The notes under the pieces: generated by a model
Database searches by the model: none
Seen by the model: only the letters and a program-made list of their open reading frames with translations
What the model was told of the DNA's origin: nothing
Program-made: the position numbers and the translations under genes
Shown: positions 4,771 through 23,651 of the stretch, one piece after another
Numbering within the stretch: the stretch's first letter is position 1
Layout of the letters: the number at the start of each line of letters is the position of its first letter
Assembly: GCA_020846775.1 (NCBI GenBank)
Contig: JADLDG010000102.1
Coordinates: 1 to 54,076, forward strand
Direction of reading: 5' to 3'
Length of the DNA: 54,076 bases
Source of the DNA: Nitrospirota bacterium
GTDB lineage: Bacteria; Nitrospirota; 9FT-COMBO-42-15; HDB-SIOI813

Positions 4771-4901
4771 GAAATAGCCTTTCAAATCCTCCCTGCCCCC
4801 CTTTTCTAAAGTGGGGTAACTAATTTCCCCCTTTGAAAAAGGGGGATTAAGGGGGATTATATTCAAGCTTTGTGAACCCGCGGCTCATGACAGTTCACTC
4901 G
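4771..4901 (-). repeat. Family A palindromic element (copy 1)
   Basis: Lies between the phosphatase and glycerate kinase genes. Read on the coding strand: a TGAGCC-type hairpin near the phosphatase stop, then CCCCCTTTTTCAAAGGGGG and a second C/G hairpin, ending GATTTGAAAGGCTATTTCG. The phosphatase stop codon is inside the element. Confidence 0.85.
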
Positions 4902-16056: not shown

Positions 16057-16719
16057 ATGAGGGAGATGAAAATAGCGCCTTCTATCCTGTCTGCGAACTT
16101 TGCCCAACTTGGTGAAGAACTCAGGAGGGTGGAGGATGCAGGGGCTGACTGGATACACGTGGATGTAATGGACGGGCATTTCGTTCCTAACATTACAATT
16201 GGACCATTTGTGGTCGAGGCCGTTAAAAAGGCGACATCTTTACCTCTTGATGTGCATCTGATGATAGAGAGGCCTGAGGGATACATATCTTCATTTGCCG
16301 ATGCGGGCGCTGATATAATTACAGTACATGTTGAGGCATGTACGCACCTCCACAGGACGATTCAGCAGATAAAAGAGTCCGGCAAGAAGGCTGGCGTGTC
16401 ATTGAACCCTTCAACACCTCTTGTTATGGTAGAGTGTGTCCTTGAAGACATTGACCTTCTGCTCATAATGTCTGTGAATCCCGGTTTCAGCGGTCAGAAG
16501 TTTATTCCGTTTTCCATGGAAAAGATAAGGGAGGCAAGGCGGATGCTCGACAAGATCGGTTCAAAGGCATATCTCGAGGTTGACGGCGGGATAAAACTTG
16601 ATAACATTGCAGAGATTGCAGCAGCGGGAGCTGATATGTTCGTTTCGGGCTCCGGGGTTTTCGGGACTCAGGATTATAAAATGACAATAGGGGAAATGAA
16701 GAAGAGGGTCAGTCTATAG
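16057..16719 (+). CDS. rpe: Ribulose-phosphate 3-epimerase
   Basis: Interconverts ribulose-5-phosphate and xylulose-5-phosphate in the pentose phosphate pathway. The 220-residue TIM barrel shows IAPSILSANFAQL, WIHVDVMDGHFVPNITIGP with metal His/Asp, LDVHLMIERPE, VHVEAC, LIMSVNPGFSGQKFI and EVDGGIKLDN. A GGGAGG site precedes the ATG. It ends 19 bp before pheS and is probably co-transcribed with it. Confidence 0.96.
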   Translation: MREMKIAPSILSANFAQLGEELRRVEDAGADWIHVDVMDGHFVPNITIGPFVVEAVKKATSLPLDVHLMIERPEGYISSFADAGADIITVHVEACTHLHRTIQQIKESGKKAGVSLNPSTPLVMVECVLEDIDLLLIMSVNPGFSGQKFIPFSMEKIREARRMLDKIGSKAYLEVDGGIKLDNIAEIAAAGADMFVSGSGVFGTQDYKMTIGEMKKRVSL

Positions 16720-16738: not shown

Positions 16739-18304
16739 ATGAATACAGAAGAGTTAAAAAATATAGTTGAAAGCCTTCACCCCCTTGAGCTGAAAATCCT
16801 CTTTGTCTTTGAAGCAGGAAAGTCCGTAGATGATAATATCCTGATCAATGAGGCGTCAATAGAGCAGTCTCAGAAGGATATGGCGATAGGGTGGCTGCTT
16901 GCCAAGGGGATACTTTCGGTTGCCGCAGAGACAGTTGAACGGTCTGTTGTCCTGACGGAAACAGGCGAGAGGTATTTTGATCTGAAGATACCTGAACTCC
17001 GCATCTTCCAATCCATCAAGGCAAATCCTGATTATTCCATGGCGGATGTTAAAGGGCGTGATGACATTGAGCCTGCTGAGATAAGTTCGGCAGTCGGTCT
17101 TCTTAAGGAAAAGGGGATAATAAAGATTGCAGCAGGCGGACGGCTGGAGCTGGATGATGAGTCATTGATATCTGAGTTTGATGAAATACAGCGGCTCATC
17201 AGTTTAGTCAGAGAAAAAGGGGAGATCAGCTTATCTGGCCTGCCTGAAAAAGAACAGACGATTATAGAGGGGTTGCACAGGAAGAGGGGTAAGTCCAAGG
17301 GTATTTTCAGGATAAATGAACAGGTCAACCGTTCATACGTACTGACGGACACAGGTATCAACATCCATGCAGCAGTGCTGGAGAAGGGGATCCCGGTTGA
17401 AGAAATAGCACAGTTAACCCCACAGATGTTGAAAGACGGTTCATGGGAGGGTAAATCATTCAGGAAATACAATATTACGCTTCCTCCACCAAGGATTACA
17501 CCCGGCAGGAAGCATCCTTACAGGGAATTTCTTGATAACGTAAAATACAAGCTTGTTGCGATGGGGTTTGAAGAGATGAGGGGAGGGCTTGTTGAGAATG
17601 AGTTCTGGAATATGGACGCCCTCTATATGCCCCAGTTCCATCCGGCAAGGGATATCCATGATGTCTATTATGTAAAGGAACCGGGATTATCAAAAGAGAT
17701 AGAAGAGCCATTCCGGACAAGGGTTTCAGAGGCACATTACTCAGGAGGCGAGACAGGTTCAAGGGGATGGAAGTATCACTTTGATATAGAAAAAGCAAAA
17801 CGGCTCATGCTCCGCAGTCAGGGGACAGCAGTTTCAGCAAGGACACTTGCACGCAGCCCGAAGAATCCGGGTAAATATTTTTCTATAGCACGCTGTTTCA
17901 GGTATGAGCAGGTGGACGCCACACATGCACAGGACTTCTTTCAGATAGAGGGGATTGTTATTGGTGAGGATATAAATTTCCGCACATTGTTAGGCCTCCT
18001 TGAATTATTTGCTTTGGAGGTTGCAAAGGCAAAGGAGATAGAATTCCTGCCTGCATATTTCCCTTTTACAGAGCCGTCTGTAGAGCTTCATGTTAAACAC
18101 CCTAAGCTCGGCTGGATGGAGCTTGGCGGTGCAGGTATCTTCAGGCCTGAGGTCACGATCCCGCTTGGAGTAGATGTCCCTGTAATAGCATGGGGGCTGG
18201 GCCTCGACAGGATGGCAATGGTAGCGCTGGAGATTCATGACATAAGAGACCTGTTCTCCGGCGACCTGGATATGATAAGGACTAAACGCGTGCAATGGAT
18301 ATAA
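16739..18304 (+). CDS. pheS: Phenylalanyl-tRNA synthetase alpha subunit, archaeal/eukaryal type
   Basis: Charges tRNA-Phe together with PheT. At 521 residues it is far longer than bacterial PheS (about 330-350). It has the archaeal/eukaryal build: winged-helix DNA/tRNA-binding domains over the first 240 or so residues (a first one with SIEQSQKDMAIGWLLAKGI, followed by similar KEKGIIKI segments), then the class II core. Core motifs are HPYREFLDNVKYKLVAMGFEEM, FWNMDALYMPQFHPARD, the archaeal-type SEAHYSGGETGSRGW insertion, TAVSARTLA, YEQVDATHAQDFFQIEGI and WGLGLDRMAM (motif 3). Bacterial homologues lack this arrangement; spirochaetes are the textbook bacterial exception. A family A repeat separates it from pheT. 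Confidence 0.95.
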   Translation: MNTEELKNIVESLHPLELKILFVFEAGKSVDDNILINEASIEQSQKDMAIGWLLAKGILSVAAETVERSVVLTETGERYFDLKIPELRIFQSIKANPDYSMADVKGRDDIEPAEISSAVGLLKEKGIIKIAAGGRLELDDESLISEFDEIQRLISLVREKGEISLSGLPEKEQTIIEGLHRKRGKSKGIFRINEQVNRSYVLTDTGINIHAAVLEKGIPVEEIAQLTPQMLKDGSWEGKSFRKYNITLPPPRITPGRKHPYREFLDNVKYKLVAMGFEEMRGGLVENEFWNMDALYMPQFHPARDIHDVYYVKEPGLSKEIEEPFRTRVSEAHYSGGETGSRGWKYHFDIEKAKRLMLRSQGTAVSARTLARSPKNPGKYFSIARCFRYEQVDATHAQDFFQIEGIVIGEDINFRTLLGLLELFALEVAKAKEIEFLPAYFPFTEPSVELHVKHPKLGWMELGGAGIFRPEVTIPLGVDVPVIAWGLGLDRMAMVALEIHDIRDLFSGDLDMIRTKRVQWI

Positions 18305-18315
18305 TCAGTTGAACC

Positions 18316-18428
18316 CCTCATGAGCCAGGGCTCACAATGGGGCATGAAAAATCCCCCTTAATCCCCCTTTTTCAAAGGGGGAAATCAGGTTCCCCCCTTT
18401 AGAAAAGGGGGGTAAGGGGGGATTTGAA
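18316..18428 (+). repeat. Family A palindromic element (copy 7)
   Basis: Between pheS and pheT on the plus strand, so inverted relative to the minus-strand copies but again sense with transcription. The TGAGCCAGGGCTCA hairpin comes first, then CCCCCTTTTTCAAAGGGGG, then CCCCCCTTTAGAAAAGGGGGG, ending GATTTGAAA. Confidence 0.88.
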
Positions 18429-18461
18429 ACTGGATTCTTGGATGAATCAGGAGTTTTTAAG

Positions 18462-20162
18462 TTGCCAACGATAAACATAAAAAAGAAAGACCTCGAAAAT
18501 CTTACAGGCATATCTTTTCCCCTTCATGAACTTGAACATCACCTCCAACTGGTTAAGGGAGAGCTGAAGGGTTACGATGAGGGGACGGATGAGCTGAAGA
18601 TTGAGTTAAGCGACAGCAACCGGCCTGACCTCTGGTGCTGTGAGGGGATTGCACGGCAGATTAAGGGGAAGCTCACAGGGGCATGGAGAGACTACGAGTT
18701 CTTTTACTCAGACGGGAGTGATAAGGCAGGAGAGATCATAGTATCCGGAGAGATGAAGGATATTCGTCCATATGTCGGCGGTTTTATTGCCACCGGAGTG
18801 ACAATAGATGATGAGATGCTGGTTCAGATGATCCAGACTCAGGAAAAGATATCAGAGATCTTTGGAAGCAAGAGGAAGAGGATATCAATCGGGATATACA
18901 GCCTCTCTAAGATAAACTTCCCGGTTCACTATAAGGCCATAGGGCCTGAGGACCTTAAATTTGTACCGCTTGGTTTTGATGAAGAGATGACCCCGAAGGA
19001 AATACTGGAGAAACACCCCAAGGGACAGGCATACAAAGATATATTAAGAGGTATGCAGAAATATCCAATACTGATTGACAGTAAGGGGAGTGTCCTATCA
19101 TTCCCGCCTGTTATCAACAGCCGGGAGGTTGGTGAGGTCAGGGCAGGGGATAGCGAGTTATTTATAGAAGTAACAGGTACAGATATGAGGCTAGTGTTAT
19201 TAGTCCTGAACGTCCTGTCCGTTAACGTCCATGACCGGGGGGCTAAGATAAGCAGGGTTGAAGTCAAGTATCCCTACGATACAGGATTTGGCAGTAATGT
19301 GAGTATCCCCTGTGATTTCGCAGATCATATATCACTTACAGTAAATAACGCTGAGAGGGTCATCGGTGAGAGACTGAGTCTGAAAGAGATCTCCTCTCTG
19401 CTTGATAGTTATAGTCATTGGGTCAAGAGGGAAGGAGAAACAGTCATGGTGACTCCACCTCCGTACAGGGATGATATTATGCACCCTGTTGACCTCTGCG
19501 AGGATATTGCCATCAGCCGTGGTTACGGTCATTTTAAACCTGTTATGCCGTCACAGATGACAGTAGGCTCCTTGTCAGAAATTGAAAAGTTCTCAGACAG
19601 GATCAGGGGATATATGGTCGGGGCAGGATTCCAGGAAATTATCTCTAACATATTAACATCCAAAGAAGACAACATGTATAAGATGGGGCTTGAGAATGAG
19701 AAGGTCATTGAGGTGGATAACATAATGTCACAGAGCTATTCAGTCCTGAGGCACTGGATCCTCCCGTCTTTATTACGTGCAGAATCAGCAAGCAGTGAGA
19801 GTTTCTATCCCCACAGGATATTTGAGGCAGGGGAGACAGCAGTCTATGATGAGTCAGAAAATTTATCAGCCCGAACAGCTATTATGTGTGCCGCCCTTAT
19901 CTCCCATCACACCGCTAATTTTTCTGAAGTCCATTCGATACTGGATACCCTTATGTATTATCTTCAGATGGACTACAGGCTGGTTCCCGGGGTCCATCCT
20001 TCATTTATCAACGGAAGGATGGGTTGGATACATGCCGGTGAAAATGTCATCGGTTTCATTGGTGAAATGCATCCAAAGGTTTTAACCGCATGGGACATTC
20101 ATGCGCCATGCAGCGCCTTTGAAATTGCCATTGATAAGATTCTTGCTTTATACCAGAATTGA
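18462..20162 (+). CDS. pheT: Phenylalanyl-tRNA synthetase beta subunit, archaeal/eukaryal type
   Basis: Partner of PheS. At about 566 residues it is much shorter than bacterial PheT (about 790-810) and lacks the N-terminal tRNA-binding EMAP-like domain and the C-terminal ferredoxin-like anticodon domain of that type. The start fits archaeal PheT ([16 protein letters not shown]). [20 protein letters not shown], the B3/B4 editing region ([13 protein letters not shown]-like stretch at about 160-180), the B5 segment and the C-terminal synthetase-like fold ([17 protein letters not shown]) follow. I chose the TTG at 18462, since CAGGAG lies about 8 nt upstream and the next residues match the family. 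A TTG at 18438 would add eight residues partly copied from the repeat. Confidence 0.93.
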
Positions 20163-20164
20163 CA

Positions 20165-20311
20165 GTATTAAGCCACATACCGCCTGTTGTAATTTTGTGG
20201 TCTGTTATTGTGGCGACATTATTTTCAGCGGGTGTAGGGATATTCTTCGGAGTCTATCCTGCCTACAGGGCTGCCCGGCAAGATCCGATTACAGCCCTGA
20301 GGTATGAATAG
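20165..20311 (+). pseudogene. C-terminal remnant of a MacB/FtsX-type ABC transporter permease
   Basis: Immediately after the pheT stop an open frame without a start encodes about 48 residues ending in a stop. It holds a hydrophobic helix ([20 protein letters not shown]) and the tail [21 protein letters not shown], the hallmark C-terminus of MacB-like permeases (usual form PARKAARLDPIEALRYE). The rest of the gene is absent, and the upstream codons belong to pheT in another frame. It is a decayed stump and probably marks a recombination junction at pheT. Confidence 0.85.
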
Positions 20312-20706: not shown

Positions 20707-20910
20707 CTATCCGTACGGTATTAGTTTCTTAACATTCCTCACATTACTCTCATGAACCATTGCTGCCTTCTTCAATGCCCTCTTTCTTCGAGAGGTCTTC
20801 TTTGTCAGCAAATGATTTCCTGATGCCCTGCTTCTTTTTATCTTGCCTGTTCCGGTAAGTTTAAAGCGCTTTGATGCGCCTTTGTGTGTCTTGAGCTTGG
20901 TTTTAGACAT
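20707..20910 (-). CDS. rpmI: 50S ribosomal protein L35
   Basis: A 67-residue basic protein with KLKTHKGASKRFKLTGTGKIKRSRA and a K/R-rich centre (TKKTSRRKRALKKA), standard for L35. Its ATG lies within the last codons of infC (8-nt overlap), so the two are translationally coupled, and rplT follows 30 bp downstream. Confidence 0.97.
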   Translation of the reverse strand: MSKTKLKTHKGASKRFKLTGTGKIKRSRASGNHLLTKKTSRRKRALKKAAMVHESNVRNVKKLIPYG

Positions 20911-21481
20911 CTTCCCTCCCTTCTGCCGTTATTACTGATTCCGTACCAGTGCCCTTTGACTTCTGTGCATCTGATCTGGGAGAGATGATCATAATCATAC
21001 TGTTTCCCTCCATCTTTGCCGGAACTTCAACTACACCTATATCCTTTACCCCGTCAGCAAATGATATCATTATTCCCTTTGCAGTCTCCCTGTATGCCAT
21101 TTCTCTTCCCCTGAAAGTAAGAGTCACCTTTGCCTTATTCTTATCCTCAAGGAATCTTCGGACATTTCGGATCTTTATCTCTATATCATGTTTGTCAGTA
21201 TAAGGTCTTACCTTTACCTCTTTAAGCTGCATACTGCGCTGGTGTTGTCTTGCGCCATGATGCTTCTTTGCAAGCTCGTATTTATATTTTCCAAAGTCCA
21301 TAATACGGCAGACAGGAGGTTTAGACGTAGGCGCTACCTCAACAAGATCCAGGCCGAATTCAACAGCCTTCTTAATGGCCTCGAACGTCGGTAGTATCCC
21401 GAGCTGTTCCCCCTCCGGGCCGATAACACGGACTTCTTTAATTCGAATTTCTCTGTTGACTCTTATACGTGGCTCTGCGAT
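20903..21481 (-). CDS. infC: Translation initiation factor IF-3, AUC start
   Basis: Binds the 30S subunit and checks the start codon and initiator tRNA. The first ATG (21301) would give only the linker and C-terminal domain. The frame continues upstream through the complete N-terminal domain (RVNREIRIKEVRVIGPEG, AVEFGLDLVEVAP, SKPPVCRIMDFGKYKYE) to an ATC at 21481. That codon lies 6 nt after AGGAGGTGA (21488-21496). infC is known for AUU/AUC/AUA starts used in autoregulation, so the ATC start is chosen, giving 192 residues. The C-terminus has about 18 extra, Ser/Thr/Glu-rich residues after the usual end. Confidence 0.95.
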   Translation of the reverse strand: MAEPRIRVNREIRIKEVRVIGPEGEQLGILPTFEAIKKAVEFGLDLVEVAPTSKPPVCRIMDFGKYKYELAKKHHGARQHQRSMQLKEVKVRPYTDKHDIEIKIRNVRRFLEDKNKAKVTLTFRGREMAYRETAKGIMISFADGVKDIGVVEVPAKMEGNSMIMIISPRSDAQKSKGTGTESVITAEGREDV

Positions 21482-21662: not shown

Positions 21663-23519
21663 TCATGATTTCTGGTTAATTTCTTGTGTTACCCTGTTAA
21701 CTGCTTCTTCAAGCGGCAATGCCCCTATATCGCCTTCTTTTCTCATCCTTACTGCTATTGTGCGGGACTCTGCCTCCCTGCCGCCTATTATAAACATATA
21801 TGGAACTTTTTCCAACTGTGCTTCTCGTATCTTGTGTCCTATCTTTTCGTTTCGGCTGTCTACTTCCACCCGCACACCTTCACTGTTAAGTGAGTCCCTG
21901 ATCTCTTCAGCATATTCATTCTGTTTATCCGTTATCGGGAGTACCTTAACCTGTACAGGTGACAACCACAATGGAAATGCCCCGGCGTAATGCTCAATCA
22001 GTATACCAAAGAATCGCTCAATTGACCCCATCAGCGCCCTGTGTATCATAATCGGCTGATGCTGCTGGCCGTCTTCACCAACATAAGTCAGGGAGAATCT
22101 TTCAGGGAGATTAAAATCAACCTGAATTGTGGTGCACTGCCAGGCACGATCCAGTACATCCTTTATCTTGATATCTATCTTAGGGCCGTAAAAAACCCCT
22201 TCGCCCGGGTCTATCTGATAAGGGAGGCCCTTTAATTCAAGGGCGTTACGCAATGCATCTGTAGCCTTTTCCCAGTTATCAAGTGTCCCTACGTAATTCT
22301 CCGGCCTTGTTGACAGGTAGATGTCATACCTGTCAAAACCATACGTAGTCAGCAGATCAACTGTAAAATCCAGTATAGAGGTGATCTCATCCCGGATCTG
22401 ATCGGGCCTGCAGAATATATGTGCATCATCCTGTGTAAATCCCCTTACCCTCAAAAGGCCGTGTAAGACCCCTGACCTTTCATAACGGTATACAGTGCCG
22501 AGCTCAGCCCACCTTATAGGCATTTCCCGGTAACTATACATCTTCGATTTATAAATAGCTATATGGAACGGGCAGTTCATCGGTTTTAACTGGAAGTCCT
22601 GTCCCTCGACATCCATAGGCTTATACATGTTGGCCTGATAGAACTCCGTATGGCCGCTGGTCTTCCATAGATCCAGCTTTGCCACATGGGGCGTGTACAG
22701 GAGCTTGTATCCATGCCTGAGGTGTTCCTCTCTCCAGAAGTCTTCAATGGTCTTTCTTATTATTGCCCCATTGGGGTGCCATAATATGAGGCCCGAACCA
22801 ATGTCATCATGGATGCTGAAGAGTTCCAGTTCTTTACCGAGCTTCCGGTGATCCCTCTTTTTTATCTCTTCAAGTTTGCTGAGATAGCTGTCGAGGTCTG
22901 CCTGTTCCGGAAATGCCGTCCCATAAATGCGTTGAAGCATCCTGTTTTTTTCATCACCACGCCAGTATGCCCCGGCAGTTTGAAGGAGCTTAAATGATCT
23001 TATACGATTGGTAGACGGGATATGAGGTCCCCTGCACAAGTCTACGAAGCTGCCCTGCTTATAGCACGATACGGTCTTATCAGGTATCTCTCTGATTATC
23101 TCTACCTTGTAATTCTCACCCATATTTTCAAAGAGCGTGATGGCGTCTTCCTTAGACATCTCCATCCGGGAGATTGGTATGTTCTTGTCTGCCAGCCCCC
23201 TCATCTTCTTCTCTATCCTGATCAGGTCATCAGGCGTAAAAGTCTTGTCATAGTCAAAGTCGTAATAAAAGCCGTCTTCTATAGAAGGACCTATGGTTAC
23301 CCTGACTTCCGGATAGAGCTCCTTTACTGCCTGAGCCATGAGATGGCTTGTGCTGTGCCTGAGAATTTCCAGACCCTCAGGAGAAGAGGCAGTTATCCAC
23401 TCTATGTCGGAACCTTCAGATGCAGGCGTGTTTAAATCTACAGGCTGGCCGTTAATTTTTGCTGCAATTATCTCCAGGTTTTCATTGCCCCTGGCTTTTA
23501 AAATTTCTATTAGTGTCAT
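21663..23519 (-). CDS. thrS: Threonyl-tRNA synthetase
   Basis: Charges tRNA-Thr. It has a partial TGS domain (IIAAKINGQPVDLNTP), the editing domain with HSTSHLMAQAVKELYP, motif 2 RYERSGVLHGLLRVRGFTQDDAHIF, the zinc ligand Cys in LKPMNCPFH, and MIHRALMGSIERFFGILIEH before the anticodon domain. The start is uncertain. ATGs at 23519, 23540 and 23603 are all in frame without a clear ribosome site. I give 23519 because a promoter-like TTGACA/TAACAT lies just upstream. The TGS domain then lacks its usual first strand. The family B element separates it from infC. Confidence 0.94.
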   Translation of the reverse strand: MTLIEILKARGNENLEIIAAKINGQPVDLNTPASEGSDIEWITASSPEGLEILRHSTSHLMAQAVKELYPEVRVTIGPSIEDGFYYDFDYDKTFTPDDLIRIEKKMRGLADKNIPISRMEMSKEDAITLFENMGENYKVEIIREIPDKTVSCYKQGSFVDLCRGPHIPSTNRIRSFKLLQTAGAYWRGDEKNRMLQRIYGTAFPEQADLDSYLSKLEEIKKRDHRKLGKELELFSIHDDIGSGLILWHPNGAIIRKTIEDFWREEHLRHGYKLLYTPHVAKLDLWKTSGHTEFYQANMYKPMDVEGQDFQLKPMNCPFHIAIYKSKMYSYREMPIRWAELGTVYRYERSGVLHGLLRVRGFTQDDAHIFCRPDQIRDEITSILDFTVDLLTTYGFDRYDIYLSTRPENYVGTLDNWEKATDALRNALELKGLPYQIDPGEGVFYGPKIDIKIKDVLDRAWQCTTIQVDFNLPERFSLTYVGEDGQQHQPIMIHRALMGSIERFFGILIEHYAGAFPLWLSPVQVKVLPITDKQNEYAEEIRDSLNSEGVRVEVDSRNEKIGHKIREAQLEKVPYMFIIGGREAESRTIAVRMRKEGDIGALPLEEAVNRVTQEINQKS

Positions 23520-23538
23520 GACTTTACAAAGATTTGAC

Positions 23539-23567
23539 ATGTTATCATCTATATAAGGCAGTGTCAA
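23539..23567 (-). promoter_or_regulatory. Candidate promoter for thrS-infC-rpmI-rplT
   Basis: On the minus strand TTGACA (23567-23562), 17-bp spacer, TAACAT (23544-23539). The -35 is perfect; the -10 matches four of six. Confidence 0.35.
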
Positions 23568-23651
23568 GCCTGCGCTTTGGCCCGCTATCGGGCTGAAACA
23601 CATTGAAAAAACGATATTGATTGTTATAGAAACACTACTTATAATGCATGG

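Follow-up and report, generated by a model that had tools for sequence, protein, structure and literature searches.

An archaeal-type phenylalanyl-tRNA synthetase as the only copy in a Nitrospirota bacterium, and signs of its exchange within the phylum at or beside the rplT locus

The only phenylalanyl-tRNA synthetase (PheRS) of the Nitrospirota bacterium considered here is of the archaeal/eukaryal type. Its pheS-pheT pair is located in a contig of 54,076 nucleotides, analyzed in full and called the window below, which belongs to a draft genome of 2.73 Mb in 136 contigs that is 99.6% complete. The first-pass annotation of this DNA had recognized a foreign-type PheRS in a host other than a spirochaete, and had proposed a search of the rest of the genome for a bacterial-type pheS or pheT. 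The host is indeed a member of Nitrospirota, and no second PheS or PheT of either type was found elsewhere in the genome, so that a bacterial-type second copy was rejected and the native copy is absent. Scans of viruses likewise returned no relatives of PheS or PheT, and a plasmid search returned only bacterial-type-like PheS matches of less than 33% identity that cover about half of the query. Taken as a whole, we consider it likely that the sole enzyme descends from an archaeal-type pair that entered one half of the phylum, spread later to two further families (f6 and f35), and accepted the resident tRNA-Phe. Family codes f1 to f43 are internal to this analysis, and f1 is the family of the window.

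In PheRS, the alpha subunit activates phenylalanine and transfers it to tRNA, which the N-terminal region of this subunit helps to hold, and the beta subunit edits tyrosine. The window's pheS (16739-18304, plus strand) encodes an alpha subunit of 521 aa that scores 574.7 bits with the archaeal-pattern profile NF003210, above its cut-off of 350, and 281.5 bits with PF01409. The beta subunit gene pheT (18462-20162, plus strand) most likely starts at the TTG at 18462, downstream of an AGGAG stretch, giving a product of 566 aa. This protein reaches 524.5 bits with the archaeal profile TIGR00471 (pheT_arch, cut-off 282.65) and 141 bits with its bacterial counterpart TIGR00472 (pheT_bact), which is below the cut-off of 402.65. 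Both subunits are thus confirmed as members of the archaeal/eukaryal type.

The domain plan agrees with the first-pass description of a 521-residue PheS with N-terminal winged helices and a PheT of about 566 residues that lacks EMAP and anticodon-binding ends. PheS consists of an N-terminal winged-helix region (residues 1-220) and a class II core (residues 243-514). An AlphaFold2 model of PheS has an overall pLDDT of only 60 and a poor catalytic half, with residues 1-220 forming a confident region of three H-H-H-beta units, as expected for the archaeal/eukaryal type. The top PDB match of this region is human cytosolic PheRS alpha, with MarR winged helices lower in the list. In a Pfam search, window PheT contains a B5 domain and the catalytic-like module tRNA_synthFbeta and nothing else; neither EMAP/tRNA_bind nor an FDX-ACB anticodon domain was detected. 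With its 566 aa it agrees with the archaeal/eukaryal type, in which PheT has about 550-600 aa and lacks these domains. The class II motifs of the pair are intact in sequence.

The best PDB match of window PheT is the Pyrococcus horikoshii protein (2cxi), whose post-transfer editing site we take to be L202, S211, D234 and T236. When mapped onto this structure, the corresponding residues of the window protein are L204, S213, E236 and T238, and the glutamate at the position of D234 is also the commonest residue among sampled archaea. The protein therefore resembles PheRS of Thermococcales in these editing-site residues, as well as in its NRPDLWxxEG motif. It differs in that its identity to Thermococcus PheT is about 37%, and bacterial sequences of this type form a clade of their own.

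The neighbors named by the first-pass annotation, rpe upstream and a convergent rplT, are borne out by profile matches. The gene for ribulose-phosphate 3-epimerase (rpe, 16057-16719, plus strand; TIGR01163, 316 bits) heads a conserved rpe-pheS-pheT unit, and rplT for ribosomal protein L20 (20323-20676, minus strand; TIGR01032, 163.6 bits) converges on pheT. Beyond it on the minus strand lie rpmI for L35 (20707-20910, read off the sequence), the C-terminal part of infC for IF3 (20903-21301; TIGR00168, 119.7 bits over model positions 61-168), and thrS for threonyl-tRNA synthetase (21663-23603; TIGR00418, 762.9 bits). The region at 21301-21400 contains no N-terminal ATG, GTG or TTG for infC, and the IF3 frame extends upstream. 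The E. coli infC gene uses an AUU start, and we liken the window gene to it.

Between pheT and rplT lies the "transporter stump" of the first-pass annotation (20168-20311, plus strand), which proves to encode the C-terminus of a MacB/FtsX permease; sister genomes have the intact gene. The stump is a remnant of 45-50 codons, with 80% identity over 45 aa by blastx to the permease of sister genome G017, and its stretch 20168-20308 matches the C-terminal 45-47 residues of a permease of 402 aa at 72-80% identity. Pfam analysis of the intact genes places macA, macB and the permease gene after rplT in three genomes (G017, G008 and G026; operons at L034 6043-9442, L035 2524-5682 and L037 5570-8859), and in the sisters G017 and G008 the operon sits between pheT and rplT. 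The window has lost macA-macB-ftsX by deletion, which left the remnant. The interval between pheS and pheT (18337-18431) is occupied by a dispersed, palindromic repeat with tracts of C5/G5, and the corresponding gap of G017 contains a similar one. In the window, the first half of the repeat (18349-18397) is present eight times and the second half (18390-18431) nine times; copies lie at 4772, 7846, 10183, 11666, 12350, 15180, 18337 (the one between pheS and pheT), 34572 and 52241, and one copy is read in frame within mutS (PISPFAKGG...).

Both PheRS types are widespread in the phylum. Archaeal-type PheT exceeds its curated cut-off in 211 of 396 Nitrospirota genomes and bacterial-type PheT in 160, no genome in these two lists exceeds both, and no family mixes the two types. 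The archaeal-type half includes Nitrospira. Within the main Nitrospirota clade, bacterial-type PheT is about 690 aa long, its N-terminal tRNA-binding part (model positions 1 to about 156) being absent (loci L232, L244-L246, L248-L252 and L254-L261), and full-length forms of about 800 aa occur in f4 (L053, L239, L241), f7 (G006) and genome G153.

Most bacterial-type families share the order thrS-infC-rpmI-rplT-pheS-pheT on one strand. Exceptions are f4, in which pheST lies elsewhere, and genomes G106 of f20 and G006 of f7, in which pheT does; in G106, pheS follows rplT (L050 5674-6711) and pheT is on another contig (C36), so that the subunit genes are separated. In f1, f3, f9, f10, f18, f22, f29, f31, f39 and f43, archaeal-type pheST converges on rplT at a distance of no more than a few kb. 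The gene rpe also precedes pheS in f2, f9, f18, f24, f25, f31, f39 and f42, and in four of these (f2, f24, f25 and f42) rpe-pheS-pheT lies away from rplT, moved as a unit. Many archaeal-type families, Nitrospira among them, have rpe-pheS-pheT in this orientation toward rplT, so the arrangement must be old, and the suggestion that the replacement was recent or confined to this genome is rejected. The first-pass annotation had itself stated that an arrangement universal and ancient in the phylum would refute a recent replacement, and the sharing of the arrangement by many families falls under that proviso.

A third arrangement is found in f35, where archaeal-type genes occupy the canonical slot as thrS-infC-rplT-pheS-pheT in two draft genomes of two genera (L042, L043). 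Family f40, which branches beside f35, carries bacterial-type pheS-pheT in the same thrS-infC-rplT slot (L232). Because these two families hold different types in one slot, displacement in place must have occurred in one direction or the other, and the position, direction and native neighbors of the f35 pair relative to that of f40 all fit displacement in situ. The same cannot be said of the window's family f1, in which pheST is convergent to rplT and lies behind rpe; the window pair adjoins the old slot in inverted orientation rather than occupying it. A neighborhood comparison across relatives, as the first-pass annotation had advised, thus yields a canonical slot in bacterial-type families, a convergent position in many archaeal-type families and the exact slot in f35. 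The original idea of replacement at or near the old locus survives as displacement at or beside the pheST slot, and not as a recent or genome-specific event. The f35 spacer between rplT and pheS (L042 2806-2930; L043 5077-5197) contains a palindrome, GTAGGACAGCCGTCTCGGCTGTCC, that shows no difference between the two genera despite divergent flanking coding DNA, and it might mark the site of exchange.

The species phylogeny does not follow the enzyme. In a tree of RpoB and RpoC, all archaeal-type families except f35 and f6 form one half (support 99), and f35 and f6 fall in the bacterial-type half; this tree supersedes a first tree of RpoC only, which positioned f2 and f10 differently. AU tests with RpoB and RpoC reject all archaeal-type families as a single clade (p=1e-4), as well as the joining of f35 (p=0.0012) or f6 (p=0.0026) to the archaeal-type half. 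In a tree of ThrS, IF3 and L20, f35 joins f40 within the bacterial-type half (95), which rejects acquisition of the whole thrS-infC-rplT-pheST block by f35 and indicates that only pheST was exchanged there. For PheRS itself, a careful tree makes f35 and f6 sisters (100/100), a grouping also given by PheS alone and by PheT alone, and places them with f1, f3 and f24 at moderate support (88/96). Comparison of the PheRS and species trees therefore suggests gene exchange within the phylum, with in-place displacement in f35, at moderate support for some nodes.

If the ancestor of Nitrospirota already had the archaeal type, f6 and f35 could instead have kept the pair, with bacterial-type PheRS returning several times in the rest of their half. 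The sister relationship of the f35 and f6 enzymes is what would be expected of remnants of one old lineage, and the main clade has a shorter PheT than the full-length protein of f4 and f7. Moreover, f4 has a full-length pair at a distance from rplT, which counts against our main reading as regards the ancestral state of f4 and f6. Vertical retention in f6 and f35 is rejected at p=0.0011 by the AU test if f2 and f10 are fixed where the RpoB and RpoC tree places them, within the archaeal-type half (99), and only at p=0.048 when these two families are left free. However, bacterial-type PheST of the main clade broadly tracks the species tree, and retention would require a return into the canonical rplT slot; the difference between f35 and f40 would still call for displacement within the slot, merely in the opposite direction. 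We regard this alternative as improbable, and favor later passage of the archaeal-type pair to f6 and f35.

A scenario in which archaeal-type pheST reached different families of Nitrospirota from other phyla by several independent transfers would be less probable still. Related genes are present in other phyla among the matches listed, and the first wide tree gave f10 a separate position on a long branch. Nevertheless, constraining all Nitrospirota, including the long-branched f10, to one clade in the wide set raises the likelihood by 15 (AU p=0.78), and the careful tree recovers all of them as a single clade. The PheRS of f10, a family that appears to be Leptospirillum-like, has a very long branch, yet its genes are convergent beside rplT (L046, L150, L141), and a position shared even by this family would be an unlikely coincidence under independent transfers. 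Although the draft assembly is split into 136 contigs, a binning artefact that placed an archaeal or other foreign contig in it is ruled out for practical purposes, since the 54-kb contig has pheST in its interior, flanked by rpe and rplT, and the same gene order is found in complete chromosomes such as those of Ca. Nitrospira defluvii (FP929003.1) and N. moscoviensis.

As to where the pair came from, a PheS and PheT tree was built with archaea and with bacteria other than spirochaetes, and was given a midpoint root, from which direction is not readable. Bacterial sequences of archaeal type form one side of a branch with SH-aLRT support of 100, and this side includes Fermentibacterota, Latescibacterota and some genomes labelled Planctomycetes, Deltaproteobacteria, Gemmatimonadota and Armatimonadetes. 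Because the Nitrospirota genes lie inside this wider bacterial clade, an archaeon was not necessarily the direct donor.

The tRNA did not change with the enzyme. A pattern search found one tRNA-Phe gene in 27 of 30 archaeal-type genomes and in all 30 bacterial-type genomes. Every tRNA-Phe found has a GAA anticodon and T or C at position 20, and every one read at full gene length has A73. The eukaryal identity set of tRNA-Phe has G at position 20. A co-evolved archaeal tRNA-Phe was not found; position 20 is never G, and GAA and A73 are present. Three f6 genomes, which have the archaeal-type enzyme, and two f4 genomes with the bacterial type share one and the same 76-nucleotide tRNA-Phe sequence, and the tRNA-Phe of f35 genome G202 is identical to that of f13 genome G032. 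Judged from these genes, the enzyme type appears to have been swapped with no visible change in a tRNA-Phe that stayed bacterial, and the enzyme probably reads it through features common to both domains, such as GAA and A73.

These observations are consistent with the following scheme. As the trees suggest, the common ancestor of half of the Nitrospirota would have acquired an archaeal-type pheST already circulating among bacteria, which replaced the bacterial pheST that other members retain after rplT. The new pair would have settled behind rpe, facing rplT, and passed later within the phylum to f6 and to f35, where it came to occupy the exact rplT-pheS-pheT slot. Acceptance of the resident, unchanged tRNA-Phe by the new enzyme would explain why the swap was tolerated. 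The window genes are predicted to encode an active alpha2-beta2 enzyme of the archaeal/eukaryal plan, probably co-transcribed with rpe, that charges a tRNA-Phe of the usual bacterial kind and presumably retains the editing of mischarged Tyr-tRNA-Phe. On balance, we think that the first entry was followed by at least two further exchanges between the deeply diverged types of this essential enzyme, one of them inside the rplT slot, with base-identical tRNA-Phe in the pairs f6/f4 and f35/f13.

Omelchenko et al. 2003, as cited in PMC9839398, reportedly describe mosaic operons that arise by gene displacement in situ. The f35 case resembles these in that resident genes of an operon are replaced in place by distant homologues, and differs in that two genes for one enzyme are involved, next to an operon for ribosomal proteins; in f1, moreover, the pair is inverted and beside the slot. 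The described precedent for the enzyme is the archaeal-type PheRS of Spirochaetaceae (Borrelia, Treponema and Spirochaeta), with alpha subunits of 513-528 aa and beta subunits of 514-573 aa (PMC3191353). Like that system, the one described here has two subunits of archaeal size and type (521 and 566 aa) that moved together, has lost its native copy, and is ancient within its group. Unlike Spirochaetaceae, about half of the phylum Nitrospirota is involved, close families differ in type, and the slot can be compared at the level of the locus, as can the tRNA sequences. We found no report of archaeal-type PheRS in Nitrospirota in the literature searched, mostly papers available without subscription. 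Thus, archaeal-type PheRS in bacteria was already known, and what is new here is the phylum, the slot evidence from f35 and the unchanged tRNA.

For annotation, our findings carry the warning that PheS and PheT, which are frequent marker genes, come in two types within Nitrospirota, a group that includes the major nitrifiers of the genus Nitrospira. Related families that have different enzyme types and the same tRNA-Phe provide matched pairs for testing and, if our reading is true, they would amount to a natural experiment on why synthetases of one domain can take the place of those of another.
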